Assembly (NCBI GenBank): GCA_029939835.1
Contig: JAOZSE010000002.1
Span: 1-46,670, forward strand
Source: Pontiellaceae bacterium
GTDB lineage: Bacteria > Verrucomicrobiota > Kiritimatiellia > Kiritimatiellales > Tichowtungiaceae
Direction: 5' to 3'
Length of the DNA: 46,670 bases
Part shown: piece after piece, positions 8,358-45,674 of the stretch
Numbering within the stretch: position 1 is the first letter of the stretch
Layout: every line of letters begins with the position of its first letter
The notes under the pieces: model-generated
The model's database searches: none
What the model was told of the DNA's origin: nothing
What the model saw: the letters and a program-made list of their open reading frames with translations, nothing else
Made by a program: the position numbers and the translations under genes

Positions 8358-9277
8358 ACCCAACAACCCTCTCTTGATGATTTTTCTGCCGCCTCAATCA
8401 ATTCCAACGTTTGCATGGCCTCGTCCAAGGAACACATTTCCTGAGAATTCAAAGCCCACGCAGCGGCGTGCATGGCCTCAATCATTTCATTCCGCTCTAA
8501 TTCGAATTTCTCAGTGGCACCGTTATGAACCAGCTGATTCCCAATAAAGTCGAGATGGATTGTTCCACTTTCATATTGGATAGTGCAGTCTCTTCGGAGA
8601 GACCGATCCAGATAGTTCATTTGGCAAAGCACGACTGGGCAGTTGTCCATTTCCATCAACAAGCCATACAGATCATCACTCTCAATTTCCAAGTCACTCA
8701 AATGGCCTCCAAGTGCTGATACCCTTTTCCATATTCCAGCCAACAAGGCGATATAGTCTAGCTCATGGCTCAAATCCCGAATAACACCGCCACCCTGCTC
8801 CTTGCTGGCGGAATAACATTCTCTATAATCCGTACCCGGACGCCAATCGGGAAGGTATTGTCCCACATATGACTGAATGGATAACAACCGCTTGCCCTCC
8901 AAAATGCTTGCCGCCTGGCGAATCAATGGATGAAAGCGCATCACGTAACCAACATAGGTATCAAATCCATTGCCGTACTCTTGAACCACGGGCTTCTCTG
9001 AGAGTGGTTTTTCAACTAAACATGTTCCGGAAAAACCAGCCGTCTGAATTTCTTCCAAGGTCTCCATATGTTCCGATGTACGGTTCGACACCACGATATA
9101 ATCCGGGCTGAACTCTTCTATTGCCCTCCGTACAGTTGAATATATAGGAAAGGGCAAATCGACAGCATGCTTGCTGACAATAGCCGTTTCTGCCCCCATT
9201 TTTTTCAGAACAGCCTCATGGCGTCTCCCGATCGAACCATAACCGATCACAAGGCTTTTTTTTACATCAGCTGTCAT
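8339..9277 (-). CDS. ptmF: Gfo/Idh/MocA-family oxidoreductase, PtmF-like
   Basis: About 312 residues. SLVIGYGSIGRRHEAVLKK near the N-terminus is the NAD(P)-binding glycine motif, IVVSNRTSEHMETL follows as in Gfo/Idh/MocA proteins, and CLVEKPLSEKP carries the conserved Lys-Pro pair. ptmF sits next to ptmA, ptmB and ptmE in C. jejuni and is assigned to the aminosugar supply of the legionaminic acid pathway. The same gene set occurs here. I prefer the ATG at 9277 because the Rossmann strand begins shortly after it. The upstream extension to 9352 is low in family character, though a further Met two codons upstream is also usable. The reaction itself is not proven by sequence. Confidence 0.75.
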   Translation of the reverse strand: MTADVKKSLVIGYGSIGRRHEAVLKKMGAETAIVSKHAVDLPFPIYSTVRRAIEEFSPDYIVVSNRTSEHMETLEEIQTAGFSGTCLVEKPLSEKPVVQEYGNGFDTYVGYVMRFHPLIRQAASILEGKRLLSIQSYVGQYLPDWRPGTDYRECYSASKEQGGGVIRDLSHELDYIALLAGIWKRVSALGGHLSDLEIESDDLYGLLMEMDNCPVVLCQMNYLDRSLRRDCTIQYESGTIHLDFIGNQLVHNGATEKFELERNEMIEAMHAAAWALNSQEMCSLDEAMQTLELIEAAEKSSREGCWVCRTIQ

Positions 9278-9606
9278 ATACATCCAAATTGTTTGTTTTC
9301 CCGTACATCTAAAGCTCAATTCCTTCATCGGGCTTGGAGTTTTGTTCGGCAAGTTGCCCCATCACCGAATTCCATTGGCCGGTTTCAACACCTGAATTTG
9401 AGCGAGGCGTTGCCAAATCATCTGCGTTCGATTTTTTCATCTCTTGGTAGCCCCTGTCAGCGACGAAACCGAGACAGTCCCAGTAATGGGTAATTGATAC
9501 ACCATTAAGGCGAAAAGGTCAAAGTTCCTCGCCTGCGGCGATATAGAGTGCGGCTTCGCCCGCATCTGCGGCGCCCACCGCAAATACGACGATTTACTTG
9601 GACATA
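9278..9606. other. gene-free spacer with a possible transposase remnant
   Basis: 329 bp between the ptmF-like gene and the FemAB-like gene. No intact gene is visible. A short rightward frame at its right side resembles an IS91-type transposase N-terminus (separate entry). The left half has a leftward open frame ending near 9313 with no recognisable motif. Confidence 0.5.
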
Positions 9607-9623
9607 TCAGAGCCTATATTTGA
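9510..9623 (+). mobile_element. possible IS91-type transposase N-terminal remnant
   Basis: The frame from 9510 to a TGA at 9621-9623 reads KFLACGDIECGFARICGAHR. This resembles the FLxCGDxxxGFARVRC segment that opens the zinc-finger region of IS91-family (Y2) transposases. The later cysteines and catalytic domain are absent. It overlaps the 3' end of the convergent FemAB-like gene. The match is short and by eye only. Confidence 0.3.
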
Positions 9624-10659
9624 AAAGCTTGTTGCTGTTTATCGGCTCCGAAGCGTTTTGATTCCGCAGTTTACATAATTCCCGGTAAATCAATTCATTC
9701 AATACGTGCTCTCCAGCATGAAAGAGTAGCTGCTGTTTGGAGAAGCTCTTTTTGAACTTCAACAGCGAATCATCGTCGTCGTTGGTTCGTCCACCTCCAA
9801 TGAGCAGCCTCCGAATGCCTTTCTCTTTGCACCATTCAATGCATTGATGATGAAGATAGTTGTTGATGCCGATTTTTTGATAAGCTTTATCGGTTCCAAT
9901 CAAGTGGCAATAGGCGAGCTCCCGACTATGTAATAGAATCATGCTGGCTCCGACTTTACCGCCTACAATTGCTGTGGATAGTGTGTAATTTTGGGCTAGG
10001 TCGTCACGAATATTTTGAAAATATTCAGAAGAGAAAAAGTAGAACCCTGCGGCCTTATTAAACTTCATGGTTTCCGCATAGAGCCGGTCAAACTGTTTCC
10101 AGTTCTCTTCATCCTGAGTGAACCGAACCGTGACCTCATTCCGCTTTGCCTTGTTAATGCTTTTTCTGTTTGCTGCCGTGTACTCTTCTGTCCATCGAAT
10201 CTCTTCATCAAGGTCTATCTCGACAAATACGGTGTTGCAAACCGGAACAATATTTCCAGGAAAAACCGTTTCCAAATCGGCATGGTTGCCCAGCAATGGG
10301 TTGAACTTGATCAGTTCGGCAACAATATTTCGTTCTTTGGCCTGCTTATGAAAACAGGAAAGCGCCGCGGCGAGAAACTCCGTGTCCTGCGTATTGAACA
10401 ATGGGCCACCGTATCCATAAGCGGTTGTAATATCGTAGTAGCTATCCAAGAAGGGAGTCTTCTGCATCAAAAAGGGATAGAGGAAGATTTTCTCCCCTTG
10501 GGAGAAGACAAAACAGGTGGACTTTCTCTCCTGACACGCATGAAGATTGACATACTCAGGATGAGCGTACACATCGTTCATCGCCGACGGAAGCTTGTTT
10601 AGCCATTCCAGCCAAGCCTCTTTTTCTTCAATACCTAACCAATAAACTGATTGATTCAT
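9607..10659 (-). CDS. FemAB/GNAT-type acyltransferase
   Basis: 350 residues with the double-GNAT character of FemAB-like proteins. The second half has VGGKVGASMILLHSRELAY, HLIGTDKAYQKIGINNYLH and GIRRLLIGGGRTNDDDD, as in Acetyltransf_6 members that transfer acyl or aminoacyl groups onto cell-surface precursors. Inside the Leg cluster it is the best local candidate for the missing N-acetyltransferase step (LegH) or for an extra N-acyl decoration of legionaminic acid. That link is positional only, because characterised LegH proteins are smaller single-GNAT enzymes. The ATG follows the stop of the TylF-like gene by about 20 bp, so the two are probably in one operon. The 3' end abuts a transposase-like fragment. 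Confidence 0.7.
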   Translation of the reverse strand: MNQSVYWLGIEEKEAWLEWLNKLPSAMNDVYAHPEYVNLHACQERKSTCFVFSQGEKIFLYPFLMQKTPFLDSYYDITTAYGYGGPLFNTQDTEFLAAALSCFHKQAKERNIVAELIKFNPLLGNHADLETVFPGNIVPVCNTVFVEIDLDEEIRWTEEYTAANRKSINKAKRNEVTVRFTQDEENWKQFDRLYAETMKFNKAAGFYFFSSEYFQNIRDDLAQNYTLSTAIVGGKVGASMILLHSRELAYCHLIGTDKAYQKIGINNYLHHQCIEWCKEKGIRRLLIGGGRTNDDDDSLLKFKKSFSKQQLLFHAGEHVLNELIYRELCKLRNQNASEPINSNKLFKYRL

Positions 10660-10679
10660 TTTTTTAGAAAACAGAAAAA

Positions 10680-11441
10680 CTAATCGATCACAATATAGGA
10701 TTGTGTCGGACTAAATCTGGAGTGGTTGATTTTGTATTTGCTTAATCCGAATACTTCCATCACCGCTTGAGTTTCTCCCGGGTAGTCGGCGCAGTTCAGT
10801 TCATCGAAAGCGATCAAACTACCTTTTGTCAATCGATCCTTGATCAATTCCAAGCATCGTTTGGTGGGCTCGTAAATATCGAAATCGAAGTAAGCCATCG
10901 ACACGATTGTCTCCGGGTTCTCTTTTAGATATTTTTCAACTTCCACGATCGCGTCTCCTTTCCTCAACTCATACTTTTTAATATGAGAAATGGGGCTCTC
11001 TTTTTCGTGATAGTTTAAGATCTCTTCCAAATATTTTTCATAGTCATCCGTCACGGAGTAGGCACCGACTTTGATCACATCCGCGTCTCCATCCTTGGGA
11101 TCCACAGAAGGGAAGCCACAGAACGTATCAAAACCTACAATTCTTCGGTTGTGGTTGTGTGGCTCGTAGATGCCTCGAAAGGATTCATAAAGAGCCAGAT
11201 TGCGCCCCCACCTCACACCAAATTCGAAAATCTTGCCATGCACACTAACGATTTGCTGGTAAAGCTCGTTCATGTAGAGAATCTGAGAGAGGTTTTGCCG
11301 GCTCATGAAAAGTGGCAAATTCATGAACAGTTCATCCTCAATAACTGGACAAACCTTGAACAGTTGTTTCAGGTCGTTTCTGATGGATTGCTCATTTTCC
11401 GAGGCATTGAATTTGGTGCCCAGTGTATTTTCTTGGTTCAT
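10680..11441 (-). CDS. TylF-like class I SAM-dependent methyltransferase
   Basis: About 253 residues from the ATG at 11441; a TTG six codons upstream is possible. KIFEFGVRWGRNLALYESF replaces the usual ExGxxxG SAM loop. IVGFDTFCGFP and AYFDFDIYEPTKRCLEL are characteristic of the macrocin O-methyltransferase (TylF) family, in which the DxD-like cluster binds a metal. SLIAFDELNCADYPGE follows, as in relatives from surface-glycan clusters. It most likely O-methylates a sugar of the nonulosonate-containing glycan; the acceptor is unknown. It lies between legI and the FemAB-like gene, same strand, with about 150 bp separating it from legI. Confidence 0.75.
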   Translation of the reverse strand: MNQENTLGTKFNASENEQSIRNDLKQLFKVCPVIEDELFMNLPLFMSRQNLSQILYMNELYQQIVSVHGKIFEFGVRWGRNLALYESFRGIYEPHNHNRRIVGFDTFCGFPSVDPKDGDADVIKVGAYSVTDDYEKYLEEILNYHEKESPISHIKKYELRKGDAIVEVEKYLKENPETIVSMAYFDFDIYEPTKRCLELIKDRLTKGSLIAFDELNCADYPGETQAVMEVFGLSKYKINHSRFSPTQSYIVID

Positions 11442-11559
11442 AATTGTATCCAGTTTCAAGGTTCATTGGTTTGTAACAAACGGTTCGGTTCGGTTCAAAA
11501 AACCCTTTTTAAAGAATAATTCAATCTACGGCTATACTATTTTGTCGAACATTGCACTT

Positions 11560-11581
11560 CCACACGGCGGATCCGCTGTGG
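11560..11581. other. short hairpin downstream of legI
   Basis: CCACA and TGTGG flank the perfect palindrome GCGGATCCGC, with a 2-nt bulge on one arm. It lies 11 bp beyond the legI stop. No T-run follows on the minus strand, so it is not a clear intrinsic terminator; an mRNA-end stabiliser is possible. Confidence 0.35.
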
Positions 11582-11591
11582 TGCCGAAACG

Positions 11592-12644
11592 TTATTGAGG
11601 TGCGGAAATATGTTTCCATTGGAGGACTTCTCCTTCCGGAATCTCCGTAGCGGCGACAGTCCCGACAATCTCGTAGAGATGTTTGGGAGCAATGCCGTCA
11701 GTTACTTTTTTTAAAAAAAAGTCATTCTGGACAAACCGCTCCCCTTTTTGAATGTCTCGGGAAGCGACAAGGAAGCGATGGAATGCTTTGCGATTTTCAA
11801 GCTCCGAAGGCATAACCCGTTTTACCCCGTCTCCCAGCGCCTTATACATGGATCGCAGGGTGGATACGTACCGTGTCAGCTCTTCCGGAGTCAGGGAGGC
11901 CTGATGATCCGGCCCTGCCTGGTCATGGGAAAGAGTAAAGTGTTACACAAAAAACCTTGCTCCCAAGGCCAAGGCCGCACAGGAAGCTTCAACGCCTGTC
12001 GTATGATCAGAAAAACCGACCGGACAATTTGTGATGGCCGCGAGTCGGGGAATCACATTGAGGTTGAGGTCTTCCAAAGGAGCCGGATATGAGGAGACAC
12101 AATGAAGGAGAATCAACTCTTCATTTTCACTCAAAACGGCCTCAACTCCTTCGATTACTTCTTCCAGCGTAGCCGCGCCGGTGGAAAAAATCAGCGGCAG
12201 CTTTTTTCGTCCCAAATACTTCAAAAAAGGAGTATTGGTAACATCTTGGGAAGCTGTCTTCATAATCGGCACATGTAGCTCATCAACCAGGAAGTCGGCA
12301 CTCTCCTGTTCGTCGGGAGTCGATAGGAAAAGAATTCCCTGCGTGTTGCAGTGCTCCTTCAGTTCTCTGAAAGCGTCAAAGGATAGTTCCAGTTTTTTGA
12401 TCGTATCAAACTCCGACTCTTCCCGGTCGGTCGCTTTCTTTTGATACTCCGGCTTGATGGATCGCTCTTGGCAATAGACTTTCTCCGTCTTCCAAGTTTG
12501 GAATTTTACGGCATCGCAGCCACTCTTCGCGGCAACATCAACCAGCTCTTTCGCGACTTTCAGATCTCCATTATGATTCACACCCGCTTCGGCGATAATA
12601 AAAAGATCTTTTTCGGCTTTTTCAATAATCGTGTTGAAATCCAC
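11592..12644 (-). pseudogene. legI: N,N'-diacetyllegionaminate synthase (NeuB/LegI), interrupted by in-frame TAA
   Basis: The full length is 351 codons, as expected for the NeuB family, which condenses a 2,4-diamino hexose with phosphoenolpyruvate. The start is GTG with AAGAGG 5 nt upstream. The N-terminal barrel (FIIAEAGVNHNGD, CDAVKFQTWK, MKTASQDVTN, GFSDHTTG) and the C-terminal antifreeze/SAF domain (RFLVASRDIQKGERF) are intact. Codon 234, at 11943-11945, is TAA. The reading continues in the same frame as HFTLSHDQAGPDHQASL. Homologues read V-E-[KR]-H-F-T here, so the catalytic Glu and the next residue are replaced by one stop codon: a net loss of one codon plus a nonsense change, not a frameshift. 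Unless another synthase exists or the stop is an assembly error, Leg synthesis is broken. Confidence 0.88.
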
Positions 12645-12668
12645 TGGAGCCTCTTCTGGTTGAAGGAT

Positions 12669-13805
12669 TCACTTTGTTAATATTTTATTCAAAATTTCGA
12701 CCATTTTTTCCATCTGGTTGATTGAGAGAAATTCATTAACGGGGATCAACAGATGAGAGTCAATAAACTGTTTTTCCATGGGAAAATTATCGATTTGATC
12801 CTTCGGAATAAAATCCCATTTATCAATCAATGTTGAGAGTAGAATATTTTGATCGAACAACTCTGAAATGACCCGGTTCCGCTGTCCGGGATTGACATAG
12901 ACCGGGACAGTCATTGGGATACAGTTTTCATCCCATGTTTCGTAAACAAACCGGAAGGTGTTGTTTCTCAGATTCTCGTACAAAAAACGGGTGTTTATGA
13001 TCCGTTGAGCCATCATTTTCTCAAAGTCGATCGTTTTCAATCGACCCAGGGTCTCTGGGCACGGGTGGTAAAGACTCAGATTATGGCTGATAAAGGCATA
13101 ATACCGCTCGTAGGCATCGCCCGTCTTCTCCAATATTTCTTGTGACTCAGAGGGGGCATCGCTCTCAAGCATCTCAAAGTTCAGATGAAGATGTTCCATA
13201 TAATTCTGGATCGAGGCTTTTCTCTCTTCACTTTCCGGTTCAAATCCCGCAGAGGCTACTTTGACGGCCGGAAGATAACTCTGAAGAATCGCTCCGTCGG
13301 GCACAGGAAGATACTTGTTGAGAGAAAAGAGGGAGAAGTCTCCTTCTCCTCCCAAAAGATCTCCCTCGGCATTTTTGCAAAACAGGGACTGGGCGCAATC
13401 TTCGAGAATACGAATTTTTTTATGGAAGAGTCGTTTTTTGATCGGTTTGATTGGCTGTTCAAATCCGAACGGATGAATCAGAACCAGCAGCTTAATGGAT
13501 GGATCGTTTTCGATCTGTGTTTCGAGTGCTTCTGGTTTGGCAAAGAGTTTTTCGTCCGCGGTGTAGAATTGAACGTTCACCCCGCTTTGAATGAATGGCT
13601 GTATCACTCCTTCGGCCACATAGGCCGGCATCAGGCATGTGTCTTCATCGGTCAGGCCTAATTGCTTGATCAGAAGCGAGATCAGGGATCTTCCGGTTGA
13701 AGCAAAGCAGTAGTCATCGCATTGCGGTAGATAGGAGAGTATCTCTCTTGCCTCCATCTCATGATAGAACCGCTCTCTGCTAGACTGCCTTAGAAGGTGA
13801 AGCAT
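12669..13805 (-). CDS. DegT/DnrJ/EryC1-like aminotransferase-fold protein
   Basis: About 378 residues. FASTGRSLISLLIKQLGL matches the helix that follows the PLP phosphate-binding loop, VLIHPFGFEQP and ILEDCAQSLF carry the conserved Asp of sugar aminotransferases, and FSLNKYLPVPDGA places a Lys where the Schiff-base Lys is expected. The sequence is divergent from LegC, which is encoded separately, so it may transfer an amino group to a different nucleotide sugar or be a modified relative. I prefer the ATG at 13805, which avoids a 20-bp overlap with the upstream methyltransferase and has GAG about 5 nt before it; an ATG at 13835 is the alternative. It lies between the methyltransferase and legI on the same strand. 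Confidence 0.7.
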   Translation of the reverse strand: MLHLLRQSSRERFYHEMEAREILSYLPQCDDYCFASTGRSLISLLIKQLGLTDEDTCLMPAYVAEGVIQPFIQSGVNVQFYTADEKLFAKPEALETQIENDPSIKLLVLIHPFGFEQPIKPIKKRLFHKKIRILEDCAQSLFCKNAEGDLLGGEGDFSLFSLNKYLPVPDGAILQSYLPAVKVASAGFEPESEERKASIQNYMEHLHLNFEMLESDAPSESQEILEKTGDAYERYYAFISHNLSLYHPCPETLGRLKTIDFEKMMAQRIINTRFLYENLRNNTFRFVYETWDENCIPMTVPVYVNPGQRNRVISELFDQNILLSTLIDKWDFIPKDQIDNFPMEKQFIDSHLLIPVNEFLSINQMEKMVEILNKILTK

Positions 13806-13815
13806 TTTTCTCAAC

Positions 13816-14481
13816 TCACAACGGTTTTCGACCATTGACTACAAAGTGTCCATACTGATCCCTGCCATTGCTCACGGTTCTAGTCGTCTTCTCCAAATTA
13901 AATGCTTCATATCCCGACATGATTTCACACACCTCGGACTCCGTAAAAAAATGCACCAGCAACTCTTTCTGGATCGGCCCTGTCTTGAAATTCGTGTATG
14001 TATTTTCTTCGAGCTTTTCAGCATCTTCCCAACCCGAAGTCTGTGTATTAATAAGGATTCCGAAGAAATACCCGCCGGGTTTGAGAAGATTCCAGATTTG
14101 CTGATGAATGAGGCGAATATTGCTGAAGCTGTTATGCTGGACTGCACTCGAGTCAATGATGACGTCAAAAAATTCCGCTGGGTAATCCAGTTGGGTAAAG
14201 TCTCCAACAGTCAAGTTCGCCTTGAGACCGTCACGGTCAAGCAACGCCAATGCCTGACGGATTGCCGATTCGCTACCGTCAATACCGAAGGTGTCAAAAC
14301 CCTCGCGCGCCAAGAACCAAGTATGGGCACCGCCACCGCATCCAACATCCAATACACGAATCTTTCCGCAGTCTGGTACACTTTTGGATCTTGATGCTAT
14401 AAACCTAACAACATCTTCTGAAGGATATTTTCCCCAGCTTTGTGATTTGAATATCTGTTCCCAGGTTTGATCAAAGGCCAT
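13816..14481 (-). CDS. class I SAM-dependent methyltransferase
   Basis: 221 residues. Motif I is RVLDVGCGGGAHTWFLA near residue 44, followed by FGIDGSESAI (acidic end of strand 2), TVGDFTQLDYPAEFFDVIID and WNLLKPGGYFFGILI (post-motif). These define a Methyltransf_11/25-type Rossmann enzyme. GGAGGG about 8 nt before the ATG supports the start. The cluster position suggests methylation of a sugar intermediate or of a glycan end; nothing in the sequence fixes the acceptor. The stop lies about 10 bp before the chosen DegT-like start. Confidence 0.75.
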   Translation of the reverse strand: MAFDQTWEQIFKSQSWGKYPSEDVVRFIASRSKSVPDCGKIRVLDVGCGGGAHTWFLAREGFDTFGIDGSESAIRQALALLDRDGLKANLTVGDFTQLDYPAEFFDVIIDSSAVQHNSFSNIRLIHQQIWNLLKPGGYFFGILINTQTSGWEDAEKLEENTYTNFKTGPIQKELLVHFFTESEVCEIMSGYEAFNLEKTTRTVSNGRDQYGHFVVNGRKPL

Positions 14482-14549
14482 GGAATAGCCCTCCAGCTTG
14501 GGTCTGTATTGCGTTGTGAAAACTTATTTGAATCATATCAGCATTCCCC

Positions 14550-15713
14550 TCAAAACCCTTTTTGATCAAAAAATTGCTTCATCGTTAACGAAGAAAAATC
14601 ATCAATAGCGCCCAGCGCATTGAGAATCAACTTTGCACTATCACCTTGCTGGTAGGGATTCTCAACCGACTGATGCCCAAACGACAAGGCCTGCGAGATT
14701 GCTTCGACAATCGCTTCTTTTTCGGGCGCACAATCAAAAACTGATGCCGCCTTCAATCGCCCTTGTTGGCGTAGTCCGATATTGACGGTTGGCGTCTGGA
14801 GAGAAGGTGCTTCATAAAGGCCGCTTGAGGAATTACCAATAACCACATCTGCGACTGACATAGTGCCTAGATAACGTTTTTGCCCTAGAGATGTATAGGC
14901 GCGTGCATTGTCTTTGTTGGCTACATACTTCTCTATGTGTTGGATTAGTGTGCGACCTTCTGTATCCGCATTAGGCATTGTAAATATCAACCCAACATCT
15001 TGGCCAAACCGATCCAGCGCCTGGAACAATTCCTCCAGTTGGTCGGAAGATGGCATGTTATCGAGAGTAACCGGGTGGAATGTTATCAAGAAGTTCTTTT
15101 CTCGAAACCGGAAATCCAATTCATGCTCCAGGGTTTCACGATCCATAGCAGCGCTACGGTGCAGATGGTCTAAACCGGGACTTCCGACAATGTAGATTTG
15201 GTCTGGGTTTTCACCCATGTGCTCCAAGCGCTTCGCCGAAATACGGTTGGTCACAAAATGTATATTAGCCATCTTGCTAATGCTGTGCCTCACGGCCTCA
15301 TCAAAAGCGCCCTCTGTGACATCCCCTCCGCCAATATGTGCAGTCGGCAACCGTGCGAATAATGCAGCTTGCGCTGCTGCGAAAATCTCGAAGCGGTCTC
15401 CAAGCACTAGCATCAAGTCAGGGCGCAATCTCTCGCAAACATCAGCAAAACCTATCACGCCAAGTCCAACAGACTTTGTTACAGCAACAGAGGTGTCGCT
15501 GGACAATAGACTCTCGACACGAGCATCTACTTTAAATCCATCTGCTTCTATGACATTGACTGTTGAACCAAATTCAGGCGACAGGTGCATCCCAGTTACA
15601 ACAAGCTGCAATTCAAACTGGCTGCTGGCCTTAATATCCTGCATTAGCCAATATAAAAGGCCATAATCTGCACGACTCCCGGTGACAACGCAGATTTTAC
15701 GTTTATTTTTCAT
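14550..15713 (-). CDS. legG: hydrolysing 2-epimerase of the NeuC/LegG type
   Basis: 387 residues of the UDP-GlcNAc 2-epimerase superfamily. The opening KICVVTGSRADYGLLYWLM is diagnostic for the NeuC/LegG/PseG-like hydrolysing branch. LVLGDRFEIFAAA, HIGGGDVTEGAFDEAVRHS and the late GNSSSGLYEAPSL are family motifs for nucleotide binding and catalysis. In the Leg pathway the enzyme removes the nucleotide from the 2,4-diacetamido sugar while inverting C2, giving the substrate for LegI. The GDP- rather than UDP-linked substrate is inferred from ptmE in the same cluster. It overlaps the end of legC by 11 bp. Confidence 0.9.
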   Translation of the reverse strand: MKNKRKICVVTGSRADYGLLYWLMQDIKASSQFELQLVVTGMHLSPEFGSTVNVIEADGFKVDARVESLLSSDTSVAVTKSVGLGVIGFADVCERLRPDLMLVLGDRFEIFAAAQAALFARLPTAHIGGGDVTEGAFDEAVRHSISKMANIHFVTNRISAKRLEHMGENPDQIYIVGSPGLDHLHRSAAMDRETLEHELDFRFREKNFLITFHPVTLDNMPSSDQLEELFQALDRFGQDVGLIFTMPNADTEGRTLIQHIEKYVANKDNARAYTSLGQKRYLGTMSVADVVIGNSSSGLYEAPSLQTPTVNIGLRQQGRLKAASVFDCAPEKEAIVEAISQALSFGHQSVENPYQQGDSAKLILNALGAIDDFSSLTMKQFFDQKGF

Positions 15714-16866
15714 CAGTACTACCCCCTAGCTTAACGCTACTCGGCATGTTAATAATCCGCTCCGCCAGCCATTCTGCATTTTCGAGCGGTCCGCAAAAAG
15801 CATCACGAAACATATCCAGCTGATGCATCAGCCGCCATGCCGGACGGGTCAACACTCCGGCATCATTGGTTTTCGCTAGCAGCTCGTCCCGCAGGGCCGA
15901 ATCGCGTAGCACCACGGCGTTCAGCCAGTAATTACTGTTGCAGCCAGCGGGTTCTTCAACAAAATCCGCCCAGTCAACTGCGTCAAAAAAAGATTTATAG
16001 GCTGCCGCCAATGATCGTTTTTCCTGAAGAAAATCCGGCACCTTTTCCAGCTGCGCACAGGCCAACGCTGCATTCAGATTGGGCATCCTGAAATTGTAGC
16101 CAACCTCATCGTGTGCAAATTCCCAGCGATGCGGAATTTTTGCCGTAGTGGTCAGATGCTTGGCCCGGTCAGCCAGTTTTTCATCGTTGGTAACGATTGC
16201 CCCGCCGCCGCCGCTGGTCATGATTTTATTTCCGTTGAAGCTGAGTACGCCCATCGTCCCGAGCGTTCCTGTATGATGTCCTTTGTACTGACTACCCAGC
16301 GCTTCGGCGGCATCTTCGATAACCGAAATGCCGTATTCATTGCCGATCTCAACAAGTTCATCCATCCGGCAGGGATGCCCGAAAGTATGCATGGGCAAAA
16401 CAGCAGCGATCCTGCGTCCGGTTGTTCGATTAAAAACTCCGCCTTTACGCTTTTCGGCATGCTTCTCAAGAAATGCTCCGACTGCATCTGGATTCAGCCC
16501 CAGGGTCTCCCGCTCCACATCCAGAAAAACCGGATGTGCGCCGTTATAGACCACCGCATTGGCTGTCGCAATAAAGGTCAGCGGCTGCATGAGCACCTCA
16601 TCGCCGGATTCGACGCCCGCCAACTGAAGCGCCACCTGAAGGGCGCTGGTTCCGTTAACTACAGCCACCGCACGGCGCGCACCCAGATAGGCTGCCAGTT
16701 CCTGTTCAAAACGATCCACATACGCGCCCACACTTGAGACAAAAGTGGAATCGATTGCGTCCAGCACATATTCGCGCTCACGCCCTGTAAAACGGGGCTC
16801 ATGGAGCGAAATGGCATCATCCGTCCCGTACCACTGCCGAACAAAGGTTATGAAATCATCAAACAT
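15703..16866 (-). CDS. legC: LegC-family nucleotide-sugar aminotransferase
   Basis: 387 residues. DegT/DnrJ/EryC1 aminotransferase with the LegC-type N-terminus (DAISLHEPRFTGREREYVLD). AVVNGTSALQVALQLAGV binds the PLP phosphate, VIEDAAEALGS has the Asp contacting the pyridine nitrogen, and VLSFNGNKIMTSGGGG contains the Schiff-base Lys. GYNFRMPNLNAAL is also typical. It transaminates the 4-keto-6-deoxy sugar made by LegB, using PLP and glutamate in the cytoplasm. The start ATG overlaps the legB stop by 8 bp and its end overlaps legG, so legB-legC-legG form a tightly coupled unit. Confidence 0.92.
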   Translation of the reverse strand: MFDDFITFVRQWYGTDDAISLHEPRFTGREREYVLDAIDSTFVSSVGAYVDRFEQELAAYLGARRAVAVVNGTSALQVALQLAGVESGDEVLMQPLTFIATANAVVYNGAHPVFLDVERETLGLNPDAVGAFLEKHAEKRKGGVFNRTTGRRIAAVLPMHTFGHPCRMDELVEIGNEYGISVIEDAAEALGSQYKGHHTGTLGTMGVLSFNGNKIMTSGGGGAIVTNDEKLADRAKHLTTTAKIPHRWEFAHDEVGYNFRMPNLNAALACAQLEKVPDFLQEKRSLAAAYKSFFDAVDWADFVEEPAGCNSNYWLNAVVLRDSALRDELLAKTNDAGVLTRPAWRLMHQLDMFRDAFCGPLENAEWLAERIINMPSSVKLGGSTDEK

Positions 16867-17845
16867 TATAAATATCTGCTTTGTAGCGGGTCAGATTCTC
16901 AGGTTTCACAAACCAGTCAACGGTGGCTTGAAGCCCCTGATCAATGGAATATTCCGGTTCAAATCCGGTCAGCTTTCGAAGTTTTGAATTGTCGCACCAA
17001 AGCCGGAATACTTCGGATTTTTCCGGGCGTAACCGCTGTTCGTCGGTAATGAATTCCACATCGCTGTTCATCAGCTCTTTGACTTTATTGAGTGTATCGC
17101 CGATCGAAATTTCGAAATTCGAACCGATGTTGACCGTCTCTCCAATCGCCTGCTCGCATCCGGCCAGTGCAATAAACCCGCGACAGGTATCCAGCACATA
17201 GTTAAAATCGCGGGTCGGCGACACATCACCCAGCTTGATCTGCTTTGAGCCGTTGGCGATCTGGGTGATGATGGTCGGAATAACCGCCCGGGTGGATTGC
17301 CTCGGCCCGTAGGTGTTGAACGGGCGAGCAATGGTCAACGGCAGGTTAAACGCGTTAAAAAAGCTCATCGCCATCGAATCCGCCCCGATCTTGCTCGCGC
17401 TGTAAGGCGACTGCGGCTGGAGTGGATGTTTCTCATCAATCGGAACATACTGAGCCGTTCCGTAAACCTCACTGGTTGAGGTGTGGATGACCCGCGAACA
17501 TCCGTTATCCAGCGCCGCCTTGCAAATATTAACCGTTCCTTTGATGTTCGTATCCACATAGCTGTCCGGAGCCACATAGGAATACGGAATGGCAATCAGC
17601 GCCGCCAAATGGAATACCACATCAATATCCTTGGTGATTTCCCGGCAGAAATGCGGATCGCGCACATCGCCGCAGACAACTTCAATATCCTCGCGGCAGT
17701 TCACATTCTCCAGCCAGCCCCAGTAATTAAAGGAATTATATTGTGAAAGCGCCCGAACCTCGCAACCTTCCCCCACCAGCATTTCCGTCAGATGAGATCC
17801 AATAAATCCATCAGCACCTGTTACCAAAACTCTTTTCATGGTCAT
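16859..17845 (-). CDS. legB: NAD-dependent 4,6-dehydratase LegB
   Basis: 328 residues of the extended SDR family. RVLVTGADGFIGSHLTEML is the NAD-binding loop, VVFHLAALIAIPYSY follows strand 4, HTSTSEVYG carries the catalytic Thr region and YSASKIGADSMA the Tyr/Lys pair. RPFNTYGPRQSTRAVIPTI is the substrate-binding segment. In the legionaminic acid pathway LegB converts GDP-GlcNAc to its 4-keto-6-deoxy form. A second ATG two codons downstream is an equally possible start. It is the first Leg gene in transcription order, 52 bp after the kinase gene at 17898, so transcription may continue from the LPS core genes. Confidence 0.92.
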   Translation of the reverse strand: MTMKRVLVTGADGFIGSHLTEMLVGEGCEVRALSQYNSFNYWGWLENVNCREDIEVVCGDVRDPHFCREITKDIDVVFHLAALIAIPYSYVAPDSYVDTNIKGTVNICKAALDNGCSRVIHTSTSEVYGTAQYVPIDEKHPLQPQSPYSASKIGADSMAMSFFNAFNLPLTIARPFNTYGPRQSTRAVIPTIITQIANGSKQIKLGDVSPTRDFNYVLDTCRGFIALAGCEQAIGETVNIGSNFEISIGDTLNKVKELMNSDVEFITDEQRLRPEKSEVFRLWCDNSKLRKLTGFEPEYSIDQGLQATVDWFVKPENLTRYKADIYNV

Positions 17846-17897
17846 CTTTTAAAACGCTCCAAGATTTTTAATAGGCGGAACCATTAATCACCTGTTT

Positions 17898-18659
17898 TTA
17901 ATCTGTATACTTTGAAGGATGCCTCAAAATCATTCCATTCAATTCATCCACCCATTCACGCACCGACTCGCCCTGCAAATACTCTCTCAAAAAAAACAGC
18001 CTCCATTTCAGCGGTATAATTTTCAAGGCCCGTTCATTCATATGGTGCAGGTTACCAATCCGCGTTCGACGTGAGATATTCCGGCTGAAGCGCACATCTT
18101 CATAATCCAACAGTAGAAATTCCATCTGACCGGCCCGGCTTCGCATTAATATATTACGTAGTGAAAAATCGATGTGCGAAACACCCCGCTCATGCATCCA
18201 CCGGACAAAAGAGGCAAAATTGATTACCCCCTCTGTAGAGATTTCTTTCCTGTGAATATAATGGTCCACTCGCACGGCATCATCACATAACTCCGCAACC
18301 AGAATAAACGGGCCAAATATTCCCAGCCGTGCCAGACCGATCATTTCGGGGCAACCAACCCCAAGAGTTTTCAGCCTGCAGGCATTATTAAAAGCTCGCT
18401 TCGCTTTTGAAAAACCCAGTGCATTACGAACACACGCCTGAATTCGGCGGTCATAAAAAAGTTTCGCGCAGCATCGCCGACCGTCAACCTCAACACCAAC
18501 CACTCCGGCCCGTTGACCGCTGTTGATTTTCCAAACATTGGAACCGGCCGGATGTACCCATTTAATTCCTTTACCGTCATAGGCTTCAAAAACCGTTCCG
18601 GCGACGGCCTGAACAAATTTCCGGTCTTCTGGACGAACTGTTTGGACTAAATTTTTCAT
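17898..18659 (-). CDS. InaA/KdkA-like LPS kinase
   Basis: 253 residues. It is a small eukaryotic-type kinase fold: CCAKLFYD with Lys66 in the ATP-binding position, GVSHIDFSLRNILM as catalytic loop (Asp164, Asn169) and LLLDYEDVRF supplying the metal-binding Asp185. This is the layout of Kdo kinase/InaA proteins, which phosphorylate inner-core sugars at the cytoplasmic face. It sits directly after waaP, in the same direction, and before legB. The precise acceptor (Kdo, heptose or another sugar) cannot be deduced. Confidence 0.75.
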   Translation of the reverse strand: MKNLVQTVRPEDRKFVQAVAGTVFEAYDGKGIKWVHPAGSNVWKINSGQRAGVVGVEVDGRRCCAKLFYDRRIQACVRNALGFSKAKRAFNNACRLKTLGVGCPEMIGLARLGIFGPFILVAELCDDAVRVDHYIHRKEISTEGVINFASFVRWMHERGVSHIDFSLRNILMRSRAGQMEFLLLDYEDVRFSRNISRRTRIGNLHHMNERALKIIPLKWRLFFLREYLQGESVREWVDELNGMILRHPSKYTD

Positions 18660-33144: not shown

Positions 33145-36024
33145 TTACAACAACGAAGTCGCGTCAACGTCTACCGTTACTTTTACCGTTTTCGGCCACT
33201 TCATTTCGCCGAATGCCGCGCGAACGGCTTCGTTCATCGTGCGTGTACGCGCGGCACGCAGCAGAATCTGCCAGCGGTATTCACCGCGAATGCGGGCAAT
33301 CGGTGCGGGCATTGCGGGCGAAAGCATCGCCTGGCCTGCCGCGCATTTCTCCAAACACCGAGAGAGCATTTCGCCCGCTTTCTCCACCTCGGCCTCGTTT
33401 TTTCCGCGCAGTGTAATGCAGGTCAGATGCGCGCAGGGCGGATAGCCCAGCTCTTTGCGGAACGTCAGCTCCTGATCGCAAAAGCCTTCAAAATCCATAC
33501 GCCGCGCCGCCTGAACCGCCGGATGGTGCGGCGTATAGGTCTGCACAATCACCTCGCCTTCCGCCTCGCCGCGCCCCGCGCGCCCCGCCACCTGCGTCAA
33601 AAGCTGGAATACCCGCTCTCCCGCGCGAAAATCAGCCATATGCAGCGCGTGGTCGGGATTCACCACGCCGACCAGCGTCACATTCGGAAAATCAAGTCCT
33701 TTGGCAATCATCTGTGTGCCGACAAGAATATCAATTTTACCGACCCGGAATTTACCGAGCAGATCGCGGTGCGCATTCTTGCGCCGCATGCTGTCCGAAT
33801 CCATCCGCTCAATCCGCGCCTTCGGGAACAGCTTGGTCATGACCTCCTCAATTTTTTCCGTCCCCGCGCCCGCATATTTAAACAGGTCGGATTTGCATTC
33901 CGGGCAGCGCGGCGGAACCGGCTTTTCGCCGCCGCACATATGGCAGACCAGCCGTGCCCGCGCCTTATGATAGGTCATGCCGACGCTGCAGTGTTCGCAT
34001 TCGGCCACATAGCCGCAGTCAGGGCAGATCAGCGACGCGGAAAAGCCGCGGCGGTTCAGAAAAATCATCGTCTGCTCCGCGCGGTCGAGCCGCGTGCGGA
34101 TGGCTTCGATCAGCTCGCGCGAAAAGAGGTGCGGCCTGCCTTCGCGCTGCGCTTCGATACGCATATCCACAATCTGAATCGCGGGCATACGGCGGTCATC
34201 CACGCGCAGCGGCAGATCGGCATAGCGATACTTGCCGCTCTTGGCATTGGCGTAGGATTCGAGCGCGGGGGTTGCCGAGCCGAGCACCACCGCACACTTT
34301 TCCATGCGGCCGCGCATTACGGCGGTGTCGCGCGCGCTGTAACGCGGCGTCTCGTCCTGCTTGTAGGTCGGCTCGTGCTCCTCGTCCACCACGATCAGGC
34401 CGAGGTTGTGCACGGGCGCAAACAGCGCCGAGCGAGCGCCAATCACAATCTGTGCCTCGCCCGAGCGGATGCGGTGCCATTCGTCGTAACGTTCGCCATC
34501 CGAAAGCGAGCTGTGCAGCACCGCCACCCGTTCCGGACCGTCTGCAAAGCGCGCGCGGAAGCGGTCGACGGTTTGAGGCGTCAGCGCGATTTCCGGCACC
34601 AGCACAATGGCGGCCTGCCCCTGCTCCAATGCGCGGGCAATCGCCTGTAAATACACCTCCGTCTTGCCCGAGCCGGTCACGCCGTGAAGCAAAACGACCG
34701 GCGGCTCCGGCTCATCCATTGCCTCAATAATCTGTTTAAGCGCGTCCGACTGTTGCGACATCAGGTTAAGCGGCTCGGTTTTGAGCAACTCGATACCTTC
34801 GTGAGGGTCGCGATAGACCGATTCGCTCGAAATCGTCACCAGCCCCTTCTTCTCCAGCGTTTTCACCGGCGAAGCCGTCACTTCTGCTGCAGCGATTAAT
34901 TCGGACAGGAGCATCGGGCCCTCTCTTTCCAGAATTTGGATAACGGCCTGCTGTTTTGGAGACAAAGGTGGAAGCGGCATCCCTGCCGCTTGAGAAAGAG
35001 GCTGGAAGCCTCTTCCACTCTGTTTCGGATTGTCTTGAATGTATTTGCGAATCTGGGTCATCTGTCGCTCGTTTCGCACGATATGATCGAACGATTCCTT
35101 CTGCCAAACGGCAGAACCTTTCGTTCCGCTCAAACGATTCAGTTCATTTGCGGTATAGGATTTCCAACTATGTAGAATATCTGACAGAAGGTTGTCTGCC
35201 AGCGGCGAAACCAAGACATGCACATGATTGGGCATCACAACAAACTCATGAAGCCGGTAGCGTTCCCCATCAAATTTCTTTAAGGCATTTTCGACCCGTT
35301 TTTTTTCTTCGCCTCCGGCGAGCCGGCAACTGCCATATCCGGCATCCATCCAGTTTTGCAAGCGGTCGGGAAACAGCTGATAGTATTCGTGCCGGGTTGC
35401 TTCATCATGCGGTTCAGGGTGTTCTTTCAGCCACAAAACTTTTTCCTGTTTCCATTGATTCAGTTTTTCCTGCGGCAAAGAGTCCGCCAAACGGAATGTT
35501 ATGAAATAGGTTGCGCCGTCCTGACGCCAGTGAGGGAGGGTTCCTTTTAGGTCAGCAATCGGTTCTTTTGGATCAAAATAGTTAATCGTAGAAACGGCTT
35601 TCTCCGTGTGGCAGAGGCTTCCAGCCTCTGTATCCAGCGGCAGGGATGCCGCTGCCACATTATTAACCAACGAAACCACCAGCTGTTTCTTTTCACCGCG
35701 AGCTTTGCGGCGAACGACTGCGGGCAGCACGGCACGCACGCAGGTCTCGAAGGGAGCGAGGTAATAGGCCGACATCCAGTGCGCCAGCTCCATCACCGGC
35801 TCGGTGATCAGGGATTTTTCACCCAGCACCTTGCCGATCGCTTTAAGGCCCGAAACCGCCGACTGATCGCTCAGTCCGATCACAAACCCGGTGATGGTGC
35901 GCGGCCCGAACGGCACTTCTACCCGCGAGCCGATTTCAACAACCGCCCGGAGCGGTTCGGGGATCAGATAGTCAAACTCCCGGTCCAGCGAGAGGTCAAC
36001 AGCAACTTTGGCAATGTGGTTCAT
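33145..36024 (-). CDS. priA: primosomal replication restart helicase PriA with in-frame RAYT transposase insert
   Basis: 959 residues from the ATG at 36024, where the family N-terminus (MNHIAKVAVDLSLDREFDYL) begins; open frame further upstream overlaps yjbQ and is not PriA. Residues 1-122 are the 3'-DNA-end-binding domain. Residues 123-352 are a foreign Y1/HUH transposase with REP ends. From 353 the winged helix (SPKQQAVIQILEREGPMLL), Walker A GVTGSGKTEVYL, VVDEEHEPTYKQDE and the zinc-binding CPDCGYVAECEHC...CPECKSD continue. Without the insert about 729 residues remain, against 732 for E. coli PriA. The insert lies exactly in the linker between DNA-binding and winged-helix domains. PriA reloads the replisome at stalled forks; whether the chimera works is not known, but all its own motifs are intact. 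Confidence 0.95.
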   Translation of the reverse strand: MNHIAKVAVDLSLDREFDYLIPEPLRAVVEIGSRVEVPFGPRTITGFVIGLSDQSAVSGLKAIGKVLGEKSLITEPVMELAHWMSAYYLAPFETCVRAVLPAVVRRKARGEKKQLVVSLVNNVAAASLPLDTEAGSLCHTEKAVSTINYFDPKEPIADLKGTLPHWRQDGATYFITFRLADSLPQEKLNQWKQEKVLWLKEHPEPHDEATRHEYYQLFPDRLQNWMDAGYGSCRLAGGEEKKRVENALKKFDGERYRLHEFVVMPNHVHVLVSPLADNLLSDILHSWKSYTANELNRLSGTKGSAVWQKESFDHIVRNERQMTQIRKYIQDNPKQSGRGFQPLSQAAGMPLPPLSPKQQAVIQILEREGPMLLSELIAAAEVTASPVKTLEKKGLVTISSESVYRDPHEGIELLKTEPLNLMSQQSDALKQIIEAMDEPEPPVVLLHGVTGSGKTEVYLQAIARALEQGQAAIVLVPEIALTPQTVDRFRARFADGPERVAVLHSSLSDGERYDEWHRIRSGEAQIVIGARSALFAPVHNLGLIVVDEEHEPTYKQDETPRYSARDTAVMRGRMEKCAVVLGSATPALESYANAKSGKYRYADLPLRVDDRRMPAIQIVDMRIEAQREGRPHLFSRELIEAIRTRLDRAEQTMIFLNRRGFSASLICPDCGYVAECEHCSVGMTYHKARARLVCHMCGGEKPVPPRCPECKSDLFKYAGAGTEKIEEVMTKLFPKARIERMDSDSMRRKNAHRDLLGKFRVGKIDILVGTQMIAKGLDFPNVTLVGVVNPDHALHMADFRAGERVFQLLTQVAGRAGRGEAEGEVIVQTYTPHHPAVQAARRMDFEGFCDQELTFRKELGYPPCAHLTCITLRGKNEAEVEKAGEMLSRCLEKCAAGQAMLSPAMPAPIARIRGEYRWQILLRAARTRTMNEAVRAAFGEMKWPKTVKVTVDVDATSLL
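34968..35018. repeat. REP double hairpin, end of the priA insert (3' side of the gene)
   Basis: Bounded by GTGGAAG and CTTCCAC-type ends. It holds AGCGGCATCCCTGCCGCT and AGAGGCTGGAAGCCTCT hairpins. It is translated in PriA as GFQPLSQAAGMPLP. Confidence 0.88.
35608..35658. repeat. REP double hairpin, end of the priA insert (5' side of the gene)
   Basis: Starts GTGGCAGAGGC and ends GCTGCCAC. The same two hairpins as the partner occur in inverted order (CAGAGGCTTCCAGCCTCTG, then AGCGGCAGGGATGCCGCT). It is translated as VAAASLPLDTEAGSLCH. Confidence 0.88.
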
Positions 36025-43500: not shown

Positions 43501-43572
43501 AAATTTTCTTACAGGTTGAATCTTTTATTCCGGCTCCGGCGGATTGAAATCAAGAGCAGGGTTAAGAATCAG

Positions 43573-45441
43573 ATGAACGAAAAGCGGAAAATCTACAGCG
43601 TCACGGAGCTGAATCGCGCGGCGCGCTTTACGCTCGAAAACGGCATTGGCGAGGTGTGGGTCGAGGGCGAAATCTCGCGCCTTACCAAACATTCCAGCGG
43701 CCACTGGTATTTCACGCTCAAGGACGAAAAAGCCGCAGTTTCGTGTGCCATGTTCCGGCAGAACAACGCGAGGATCTCTTTTGCACCGAAGGATGGGCTC
43801 AAGGTGCGTGTATTCGGACAGGCCAGTCTTTACGAGCCGCGCGGAAATTATCAGCTCATTGTTCGCCAGATGGAGGAAGCAGGCAAAGGGACACGTCAGG
43901 AACAGTTTGAAAAACTGAAAGCCAAATTGGCCGCCGAGGGTCTCTTTGACGAAGAGTACAAAAAGCCACTCCCGCTGCTGCCGCAAAAGATCGGTGTGGT
44001 GACGTCCCCTACCGGCGCGGCGATCCGCGATATCATCAATGTGCTGACGCGACGCTTTCCAAATCTCGAAATCCTGCTCGCGCCGGTCACGGTACAAGGC
44101 GAAGGCGCGGCGGAAAAAATTGCCGCCGCGATCGAGTATTTGAACGCATACAACAAAAACGTAGGACAGGCTTCCAGCCTGTCTGAACCATCGGAGGATG
44201 CGCGCTATTTCACACCGTTTCTTCCCCTCGAAATCGCAAAACGTCATTTGCCGCACTGGGAACAGGAAGGTGTCACGTATTTTGTGACATTCCGGCTGGC
44301 CGATGCCCTGCCAAAGAAAAAATTGGAACAATGGAAAAGTGAACGTGAACAGTGGCTCAAGACCCATGAAGAACCGTATTCCTCGCAGGAAATGGAGGAA
44401 TACAGCGAACTTTTCAGTGAGAGAATCAACCAATGGCTGGATACCGGATCAGGCTCCTGCCTTTTAGCAGACCAAGGAAACGCCCGGATTGTCGAAGATG
44501 CCTTCCATCACTTTGACGGAGAGCGCTATCATCTGGGCTCATACATCATCATGCCGAATCATATCCATGTACTGATCACCCCCACCCCCGGATATACCTT
44601 GCCCTCTATTCTGCATTCTTGGAAATCGTTTACCGCAAACAAAATCAATGAACAGAGAGGACGAAGTGGGCCGGTGTGGCAGGATGAATCGTATGATCAT
44701 ATTGTAAGAAGCCCTGAACAACTGAAGTTCTACACACAGTACATTCAAAAAAACTTCGAACAGTCGAATGGCACTGCTCTGGTGCATATAGACAGGCTGG
44801 AAGCCTGTCCTACGTTGGAGAGGCCAATTGACGTGCTGATCGTCGGGCGCGGCGGCGGAAGCCTCGAAGACCTCTGGGCTTTTAATGAAGAAATCGTCGC
44901 TCGTGCAATTGCCGCCTCGAAGATTCCAATCATTTCAGCGGTCGGACACGAAATTGATTTTACCATCGCGGACTTTGTCGCGGATCTGCGCGCGCCGACG
45001 CCCTCGGCGGCGGCCGAGCTGGCCGTGCAAGTGAAGACCGAACTTGAAACACAGATTACGCGGCTGGCCGCGCGGCTCGGCGGTTCATTGCAAAATCAGG
45101 AGCGTGTGCTGCGTGAGCGGCTTCCGGGCCTGCGCCAAACGATGGTGCACGCTTTGCGCAACGGCCTCCAGCGGACACAGCAGAAGATGGACGAAAGCGC
45201 GCTGACGCTCGGTCATCTGCTGCAAAGCGTCGTGGCGGAGCGTAAACAGAATCTGCGACGGCTTGAAGTGCAGCTGCGGGCACTGGGCCCGCTGGCGGTG
45301 CTCGATCGCGGCTACAGCGTTACGCAGACCGCAGACGGAAAAGTCGTGCGCGACGCGGGAAAACTGAAAAAAGGTGATCTGCTGCACACGCGGCTCGCCA
45401 AAGGAACCGTACTTTCAGAAGTCAAAGAGAAGGAGACGTAA
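43573..45441 (+). CDS. xseA: exodeoxyribonuclease VII large subunit with in-frame RAYT transposase insert
   Basis: 622 residues from the ATG at 43573, where the XseA N-terminus (KIYSVTELNRAARFTLEN) starts. Residues 1-196 contain the OB fold (VWVEGEISRLTKHSSGHWYF) and IGVVTSPTGAAIRDI. Residues 197-414 are a Y1/HUH transposase with its REP ends. From about 420 the enzyme resumes with DVLIVGRGGGSLEDLWAFNE, VGHEIDFTIADFVADLRAPT and the C-terminal coiled coil. Normal XseA reads continuously from the IxxLN helix into DVLIVGRGGG, so the insert occupies one surface loop. Removing it leaves about 404 residues, a normal size. ExoVII degrades single-stranded DNA with XseB, encoded 2 bp downstream. All XseA motifs survive. 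Confidence 0.95.
   Translation: MNEKRKIYSVTELNRAARFTLENGIGEVWVEGEISRLTKHSSGHWYFTLKDEKAAVSCAMFRQNNARISFAPKDGLKVRVFGQASLYEPRGNYQLIVRQMEEAGKGTRQEQFEKLKAKLAAEGLFDEEYKKPLPLLPQKIGVVTSPTGAAIRDIINVLTRRFPNLEILLAPVTVQGEGAAEKIAAAIEYLNAYNKNVGQASSLSEPSEDARYFTPFLPLEIAKRHLPHWEQEGVTYFVTFRLADALPKKKLEQWKSEREQWLKTHEEPYSSQEMEEYSELFSERINQWLDTGSGSCLLADQGNARIVEDAFHHFDGERYHLGSYIIMPNHIHVLITPTPGYTLPSILHSWKSFTANKINEQRGRSGPVWQDESYDHIVRSPEQLKFYTQYIQKNFEQSNGTALVHIDRLEACPTLERPIDVLIVGRGGGSLEDLWAFNEEIVARAIAASKIPIISAVGHEIDFTIADFVADLRAPTPSAAAELAVQVKTELETQITRLAARLGGSLQNQERVLRERLPGLRQTMVHALRNGLQRTQQKMDESALTLGHLLQSVVAERKQNLRRLEVQLRALGPLAVLDRGYSVTQTADGKVVRDAGKLKKGDLLHTRLAKGTVLSEVKEKET
44158..44183. repeat. left REP hairpin of the xseA insert
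   Basis: AACGTAG followed by the hairpin GACAGGCTTCCAGCCTGTC. It is translated as VGQASSLS. GTAG stands at the hairpin base. Confidence 0.88.
44791..44816. repeat. right REP hairpin of the xseA insert
   Basis: The hairpin GACAGGCTGGAAGCCTGTC followed by CTACGTT, the exact reverse complement of the left end. It is translated as DRLEACPTL. Confidence 0.88.
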
Positions 45442-45443
45442 TC

Positions 45444-45674
45444 ATGGCCGAAAAAACTGTCGATTTTGAAAAATCCCTCGAACGGCTCGAAGCAATTGTC
45501 GAGGAGATGGAAAGCGGTGAGCTTTCGCTCGAACAGATGATTAAGCATTTCGAGGAAGGTTCGAAGCTGGTCACGCTCTGCTCCGGCAAGCTCAACGAGG
45601 TGGAGCAGAAAATTGAAAAGCTGGTGAAAAAAGACAGCGAGCTGACCGCCGAACCGTTTGAGTCCGAAGAGTAA
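45444..45674 (+). CDS. xseB: exodeoxyribonuclease VII small subunit
   Basis: 76 residues. VDFEKSLERLEAIVEEMESG and LSLEQMIKHFEEGSKLVTLC give the two helices of XseB, with the usual acidic tail. XseB helices bind the long C-terminal coiled coil of XseA. AAGGAGACG before the ATG is a strong ribosome site and the gene follows the xseA stop by 2 bp, so the chimeric xseA is still in its normal operon. Confidence 0.94.
   Translation: MAEKTVDFEKSLERLEAIVEEMESGELSLEQMIKHFEEGSKLVTLCSGKLNEVEQKIEKLVKKDSELTAEPFESEE

Follow-up and report, generated by a model that had tools for sequence, protein, structure and literature searches.

In-frame RAYT transposases inside exonuclease VII and other host proteins of a Pontiellaceae bacterium and its relatives

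A whole REP-RAYT-REP element, or REPtron, was found in frame within one loop of the exonuclease VII gene xseA of a Pontiellaceae bacterium, and most of its closest relatives in related genomes were likewise found inside host genes. Our preferred reading, to which we give a probability of about 70%, is that this is a RAYT lineage adapted to start-less life inside host proteins, from which it would probably mobilise REPs in trans. The window analysed is the whole stretch of 46,670 nucleotides (contig JAOZSE010000002.1 of assembly GCA_029939835.1). The element covers 659 nt (44158-44816) of xseA (43573-45441, + strand), and a single open frame spans host and insert (ORF 43516-45441, + strand; xseA ATG at 43573, stop at 45441). 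The features of this region are as follows:

43573..44157, + strand: N-terminal part of the xseA host (OB fold and start of the catalytic domain), by Pfam tRNA_anti_2 and Exonuc_VII_L and by E. coli XseA residues 7-196 (8txr)
44158..44184, + strand: left REP, a GTAG-headed palindrome translated as NVGQASSLS, with a perfect 27-nt inverted match to the right REP
44212..44787, + strand: RAYT (Y1, HUH) domain in the xseA frame, by Pfam Y1_Tnp, the lineage profile and structure 4er8
44560-44562, 44566-44568 and 44740-44742, + strand: catalytic codons of the XseA-RAYT for H330, H332 and Y390, respectively, by residue numbering
44790..44816, - strand: right REP, repeating the left one in inverted orientation and read as DRLEACPT, by its palindrome and inverted match
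44817..45441, + strand: C-terminal part of the xseA host, from DVLIVGRGGGS on, by Exonuc_VII_L and E. coli residue 198 onward
45444..45674, + strand: xseB-like small subunit, directly 3' of xseA, named from a reading of the sequence

The sequence-only reading had proposed an in-frame RAYT in xseA with catalytic residues His330, His332 and Tyr390, and this was borne out by the single ORF, by the residue numbering (from the ATG at 43573), which placed the two HUH histidines and the tyrosine as predicted, and by Pfam, which gave Y1_Tnp at 27.0 bits (cut-off 23) with Exonuc_VII_L on either side. The proposed position, a loop before the DVLIVGRGGGS strand, also held: in the comparison with the E. 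coli exonuclease VII structure 8txr the host alignment ends at residue 196 and restarts at 198, indicating that the element occupies one short turn before that strand. The net gain with respect to empty xseA genes was 223 codons (280 vs 57 residues for the same segment). The ends had been described as perfect, inverted and translated, and they are, over 27 nt (44158-44184 and 44790-44816), which is longer than had been claimed. Each arm is itself a palindrome (GACAGGCTTCCAGCCTGTC) with a GTAG head, i.e. a REP, and the hairpin GTAGGACAGGCTTCCAGCCTGTC is the predicted cognate substrate of the XseA-RAYT.

Three features by which RAYTs are recognised were found, namely the HUH motif with a downstream Tyr, inverted REP flanks headed by GT[AG]G and, across the genome, dispersed cognate REPs. 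The family profile matched the TnpAREP structure 4er8 at 3.6e-5, and also the ISDra2-type TnpA structure 2xm3. Met is absent from 60 residues upstream of the domain to 20 residues inside it, so that no stand-alone start was found; this start-less state was treated as a new variation and not as a reason for exclusion from the RAYTs, the published classes of which rest on the protein and the REPs.

Ten Y1_Tnp matches were detected in the window genome (G000), of which three belong to this lineage. One lies in xseA, one in priA and one in a CCA/poly(A)-polymerase-like gene, each embedded in frame in its host; inspection of frames of the remaining seven showed no host part. The other in-frame sense copy that had been reported near xseA proved to be real, with Pfam PriA domains and Y1_Tnp in the same frame:

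33145..36024, - strand: priA with in-frame RAYT, by Pfam PriA domains and Y1_Tnp and by E. coli PriA (8fak)
34990..35571, - strand: RAYT domain within priA, by Pfam Y1_Tnp and the lineage profile

The alignment of the PriA fusion with E. coli PriA (8fak) ends at residue 106 and restarts at 129, after the 3'BD. The third copy lies in frame in the CCA-enzyme gene (contig C58, locus L012 4887-7082, - strand) and carries a different REP type (GTGGCGCAGGCGCC...). All xseA matches of the window genome fall in the fused gene and there is one PriA_C match, indicating that the fused copies are presumably the working enzymes; the hosts presumably function with the insert present. The xseA and priA insertions had been called independent, which stands in so far as each copy falls in the group specific to its own host. 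Related species, however, have insertions at both sites, so that neither is private to this genome. A local hop between xseA and priA, which lie 8.6 kb apart, was also considered and found no support, the XseA group not being paired with the PriA group on the trees. Elsewhere in the window, positions 5626-18659 hold a run of sugar-activation genes that resembles a surface-glycan cluster of the sialic or nonulosonic-acid type (NeuB- and NeuC-like ORFs, named from a reading of the sequence).

A lineage profile built from the three window-genome copies matched 38 of 58 related genomes. The best 75 places (to E about 1e-20, with split rows merged and some 18 weaker places outside the count) were classed: 54 lay inside host genes, in sense and in frame, two were C-terminal TatD fusions, and 19 either stood alone or ended at a contig edge with no trace of a host. 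Host frame of at least 100 aa was present on both sides in 45 of the 54 embedded copies, or in 52 when contig edges were allowed. The hosts were PriA (n = 17), the CCA enzyme (n = 10), XseA (n = 9), a B12-binding radical-SAM protein (n = 9, at two different sites), HypF (n = 2), diphosphomevalonate decarboxylase (n = 2), an Eco57I-type methyltransferase (n = 2), CmoB (n = 1), Fic (n = 1) and an HsdR-like protein (n = 1), host families having been searched for one or two members per cluster and assigned to the rest through BLAST clustering. The classed rows are related and not independent of one another, and in the 58 genomes they correspond to about 12 embedded and two free-standing distinct host-site events. 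The isolate Pontiella sulfatireligans F21(T) (G024), of the same order as the window, Kiritimatiellales, carries both the PriA and the B12-radical-SAM fusions.

The frame was open in 53 of the 54 embedded copies, the exception being the HypF copy of G001 (L088 / L134), where an in-frame TAG suggests that the fusion has decayed. The HUH motif was intact in all 54 and the Tyr motif in 52, with His replacing Tyr in the PriA copy of G003 and the domain interrupted in the HsdR-like ORF of G012 (L116), whose RAYT part is itself broken by an in-frame insert. A Met within 20 codons before the domain was found in only 4 of the 50 embedded copies with enough sequence, in contrast to 13 of 19 free-standing ones (P 1e-6). 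Estimates of dN/dS, which rest on eight pairs in total, were 0.08 for the RAYT domain of PriA (one usable pair of 136; host part 0.07) and 0.13-0.20 for that of the CCA enzyme (seven usable pairs of 45), none of the 36 XseA pairs being close enough; these values indicate that purifying selection acts on the amino-acid sequence of the domain and that it is no bare linker, at least in PriA and the CCA enzyme.

In a tree of 74 rows a clade of 55, with modest support (84/85), comprised 53 embedded and two free-standing rows. Grouping inside it followed the host: XseA (9 rows), the CCA enzyme (10 rows), radical-SAM with HypF and Fic (12 rows), and PriA with diphosphomevalonate decarboxylase and CmoB (20 rows, support 86/60). 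A larger tree of 151 rows, to which named loci were added, from which three duplicates were dropped, and in which the two TatD fusions were scored as embedded, was obtained by a short search; it does not keep the 55 rows together, the nearest group having 58 rows, 51 of them embedded, with the Cca rows outside. On this tree the embedded state required 15 changes against a shuffled mean of 50.4, and none of 500 shuffles was as low. As a control, 122 Y1_Tnp rows from 24 genomes were compared: 23 of 24 lineage rows lay in frames of at least 400 aa, one row was a TatD fusion, and only 3 of the 97 other rows had frames of that length. The earlier suggestion of a strategy rather than an accident is thus upheld by the 54 of 75 places embedded in sense and in frame, by the frame-length control and by the tree. 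The random spread over intergenic regions and orientations that had been named as evidence against it was not seen for the transposase copies, yet bare REPs of the window genome look mostly intergenic.

Two of the three long non-lineage frames hold another type of RAYT, which in L284 precedes a putative cyclo-ligase and in L285 terminates a CobQ-like protein, and RAYTs of this kind also end ThiD-like proteins in L121, L125 and L283 (host names read from the sequence). Given these terminal RAYTs of other types, and those of the TatD fusions (L094, L096), fusion may have arisen more than once.

The home sites alternate between empty, REP-only and RAYT-filled states from species to species. The xseA gene was present in 57 of the 58 genomes, and among 39 genes read at the insertion site, 26 were empty, four held a REP pair only and nine were filled by a RAYT; RAYT presence needs six changes on the xseA host tree. 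At least 51 of the 58 genomes have priA (three PriA_C searches, giving a lower bound), and of nine priA genes that were inspected and lack the RAYT, two (G004 and G025) hold a REP pair at its site. Two long PriA frames lacking a RAYT match were accounted for, in G025 by this REP pair and in G046 by a long upstream frame only.

In two genomes (G032 and G041) the C-terminal parts of xseA belong to the sister family, while the RAYTs inside these genes cluster with RAYTs of the family to which the window belongs. An xseA host tree constrained to keep the first-type bearers in one group was rejected (AU P 3e-68), as was a sister-family RAYT clade (P 0.003), revealing a conflict between the RAYT and host trees. 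The groups compared were named after the trees had been seen and the N-terminal part of both xseA genes is cut by contig ends, so that a longer piece may have recombined. Even so, it seems that the RAYT arrived at the same xseA site from another family in a homing-like manner, by transposition or by recombination through the flanks.

The palindrome of the XseA element occurs 69 times in the window genome (at most two mismatches), and its reversed control 0 times. Inspection revealed similar inverted REP flanks in most other hosts, the REP at the domain edges differing between host types. The first XseA REP type (23 nt, at most one mismatch) was present in 52, 29, 13, 4 and 3 copies in five bearer genomes (52 in the window genome), two in each being the flanks, and it was found outside xseA in all five bearers vs 10 of 53 other genomes (P 7e-4). 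The chief exception was G003, with 21 REPs of this type, mostly of a GTGGG variant, and without an XseA-RAYT. Similarly, one PriA REP type was present outside priA in six of the seven bearers of the matching PriA-RAYT group vs 9 of 51 others (P 7e-4), four of those nine being genomes in which priA was not found. A second XseA REP type was restricted to three of the 58 genomes, with 15 copies in G029 (four at xseA), three in G035 (all at xseA) and one in G012; it was seen in two of the four second-type bearers, outside xseA only in G029 among them, and was absent from bearers G027 and G031 at the mismatch level used. The link between the type of REP and the resident RAYT is correlative and has its exceptions.

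Bare REPs of the window genome were surveyed as 42 groups in 40 regions (54 palindromes, among those listed of the 69, with three contig-edge sites left out). At most 15 of the 42 groups lay in a spanning frame that is over 150 aa long and extends past the REPs by over 50 aa in both directions, and most bare REPs look intergenic, as judged from spanning frames without gene calling; the idea that they form a parallel in-frame population was accordingly dropped. Among 10 REP-spanning ORFs searched with Pfam, those for a HemA-like protein, TilS and a DUF2064-glycosyltransferase have domains flanking or crossing the REP, TrpC has the REP ahead of its domain, one is a DUF1573 ORF and five had no Pfam match. 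In-frame bare REPs of the XseA type were observed at four loci (L244, L251, L263 and L245, in HemA-like, TilS, DUF2064-glycosyltransferase and TrpC, respectively). The contrast between free bare REPs and embedded transposases suggests that selection on expression, and not insertion targeted to genes, lies behind the pattern.

A scan of named bacterial genomes extended the range of hosts. In 24 of its best 80 loci at least 94 in-frame host residues were present on each side, and Pfam assigned a host family to 22 of the 23 searched (L151, the PriA copy of G003 again, was set aside), with none for L143. Hosts among the best 80 loci included class I tRNA synthetases (L128, L130 LeuRS, L155 ValRS), CarB (L136, L197), MetH (L164, L175, L188, L191), IspG (L162), adenosine deaminase (L135), FabA-like proteins (L161, L171), a dehydrogenase-oxidoreductase frame (L131), DUF1156 (L182) and the restriction proteins HsdR (L129, L144, L147), MmeI (L132) and Eco57I type (L140, L146, L168). 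By the labels of their records, these embedded loci belong to Verrucomicrobiota and Planctomycetota, with one assembly each of Gallionellaceae, Ignavibacteriales, Methylomirabilis and Methylobacter. In several phyla the host was often a restriction-modification protein, of Eco57I type, MmeI or HsdR (also L063 and L092), and such proteins are a possible route of spread between lineages. A phylum survey of 193 genomes, drawn evenly, gave a lineage match in 52. Frames of at least 400 aa were found in 30 of its 96 rows. In the two home families all 14 rows had such a frame, one of them a C-terminal fusion to TatD, as against 16 of the 82 rows from other groups, indicating that near-total embedding is characteristic of the home families and a minority state beyond them.

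Under the preferred reading, the insert is a REPtron whose transposase gene, having no start of its own, resides in frame in a host protein. The lineage would have largely given up the separate-gene state to become an additional domain, translated within a loop or linker of some housekeeping enzyme, as seen in the frames, the positions and the missing starts. The RAYT would be produced as part of the host enzyme, and the host gene would supply expression and shield it from frameshift or nonsense decay, since such changes would break the host too. The fusion protein may cut and copy cognate REPs in trans across the genome, as the intact HUH and Tyr motifs and the match between REP type and resident RAYT suggest, and new homes would be gained by in-frame, sense insertion of the REP-bounded unit into a loop that tolerates it, unsuccessful insertions being lost. 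A stronger version, with homing to fixed loops of housekeeping genes, is offered tentatively and has perhaps one chance in three: an intein-like life without splicing, in which the RAYT of the home families is nearly wholly protein-embedded, crosses between families to the same site without the host gene, may leave behind either scars made of REPs or sites that are cleanly empty, and controls the REP population of its genome as a domain of indispensable enzymes.

The pattern might instead be an accident filtered by survivorship, with random insertion followed by the loss of all but in-frame sense copies in indispensable genes, so that the strategy is merely apparent. The diversity of unrelated host genes would agree with this, as would the bare REPs of the window genome, no more than 15 of the 42 groups being in spanning frames and most appearing intergenic. 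Survivorship covers the missing out-of-frame copies, but it leaves the shortage of intergenic ones unaccounted for, with 53 embedded to two free-standing rows in the clade and, by events, about 12 to 2 compared with 15 to 27 REP groups (P 0.002). Moreover, 94 of the 97 other Y1_Tnp rows in 24 genomes lie in frames shorter than 400 aa, the embedded copies have mostly lost their own starts, and some hosts, among them HypF, Fic and restriction enzymes, may be dispensable; we consider this explanation unlikely. A service to the host was also weighed, in which the RAYT domain guides exonuclease VII or PriA to hairpins, single-stranded DNA or forks. In the converse version, which the sequence-only reading had put forward as a speculation from a link to single-strand DNA and fork enzymes, it is the host that carries the RAYT to such places. 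XseA and PriA do act on single-stranded or branched DNA, and in one PriA pair the dN/dS of the RAYT domain resembles that of the host. The proposed link was nevertheless not supported by the hosts, which include LeuRS, ValRS, carbamoyl-phosphate synthase (CarB), methionine synthase (MetH), a FabA-like protein, IspG, HypF, diphosphomevalonate decarboxylase and restriction enzymes; targeting to forks or single-stranded DNA was rejected since they are too diverse, and close relatives have empty xseA and priA sites, which makes co-option by the host improbable.

A dead passenger, that is, an old insertion tolerated as a linker, would fit the loop or linker position, the interrupted RAYT of the G012 HsdR-like ORF, the one lost Tyr and the one stop codon. 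It is disfavoured, and slightly less probable still than co-option, given the conservation of HUH (54/54) and Tyr (52/54), dN/dS well below 1 in all eight usable pairs and the cognate REPs present in bearers. Finally, the window assembly has 183 contigs and is 87% complete, which leaves room for a metagenome assembly or binning artefact, but the same sites are filled in several species; among these, the 7-contig assembly G007 has both the XseA and the PriA fusion and the isolate P. sulfatireligans has the PriA one, and the frame is open in 53 of 54 copies, so that this explanation is scarcely credible. The start-less, host-embedded RAYT lineage thus remains our preferred reading.

The insert shares with the RAYT/TnpAREP REPtrons the Y1 transposase with HUH and Tyr, the inverted GTAG-headed REP flanks and the dispersed REPs; RAYTs are treated as separate genes in the published work consulted, whereas here they are start-less and read inside a host protein. 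By motif, class 2.4 (NH[IFV]H, WQ, YIxNNP) of PMC6006769 looks nearest to this lineage. That paper reports in-frame REPs within tnpAREP genes and sets aside unexpectedly long proteins as fusions or annotation errors. Palindromes read in frame in protein genes are also known, both as intragenic REPs, many of them in replication and repair genes, and as Rickettsia palindromic elements (PMC3733652); the likeness concerns the mode of insertion alone, and those inserts, as described there, are some 20-82 aa without a transposase, in contrast to the whole transposase of about 190 aa found here.

Inteins with homing endonucleases are selfish nucleases in frame inside conserved proteins, and the embedded RAYT would be analogous in this respect and in its apparent arrival at an identical site in a different family. 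Unlike an intein, the insert stays in the protein, whose fold must tolerate the RAYT, and a Pfam scan (E 0.001) detected no Hint or splicing domain in the XseA and PriA fusions. With the TnpA of IS200/IS605 the insert has the Y1 HUH chemistry in common, but the set of near-identical copies typical of those elements is absent, the PriA and Cca copies being 50% and 46% identical to that of XseA, respectively. No description of whole in-frame RAYTs inside host proteins was found in the literature searched, which covered few subscription journals and preprints. The protein family and the biology of REPs are known; the way of life is new.

Embedded RAYTs are natural maps of insertion-tolerant loops in important enzymes, and they place transposases, hidden from view, in genes annotated as tRNA synthetase, PriA or MetH. 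If our reading is true, they represent a new route of persistence for a mobile element in a compact genome, with no gene of its own and riding in proteins that are hard to lose, which would help to explain the upkeep of RAYTs and the origin of some REP families.
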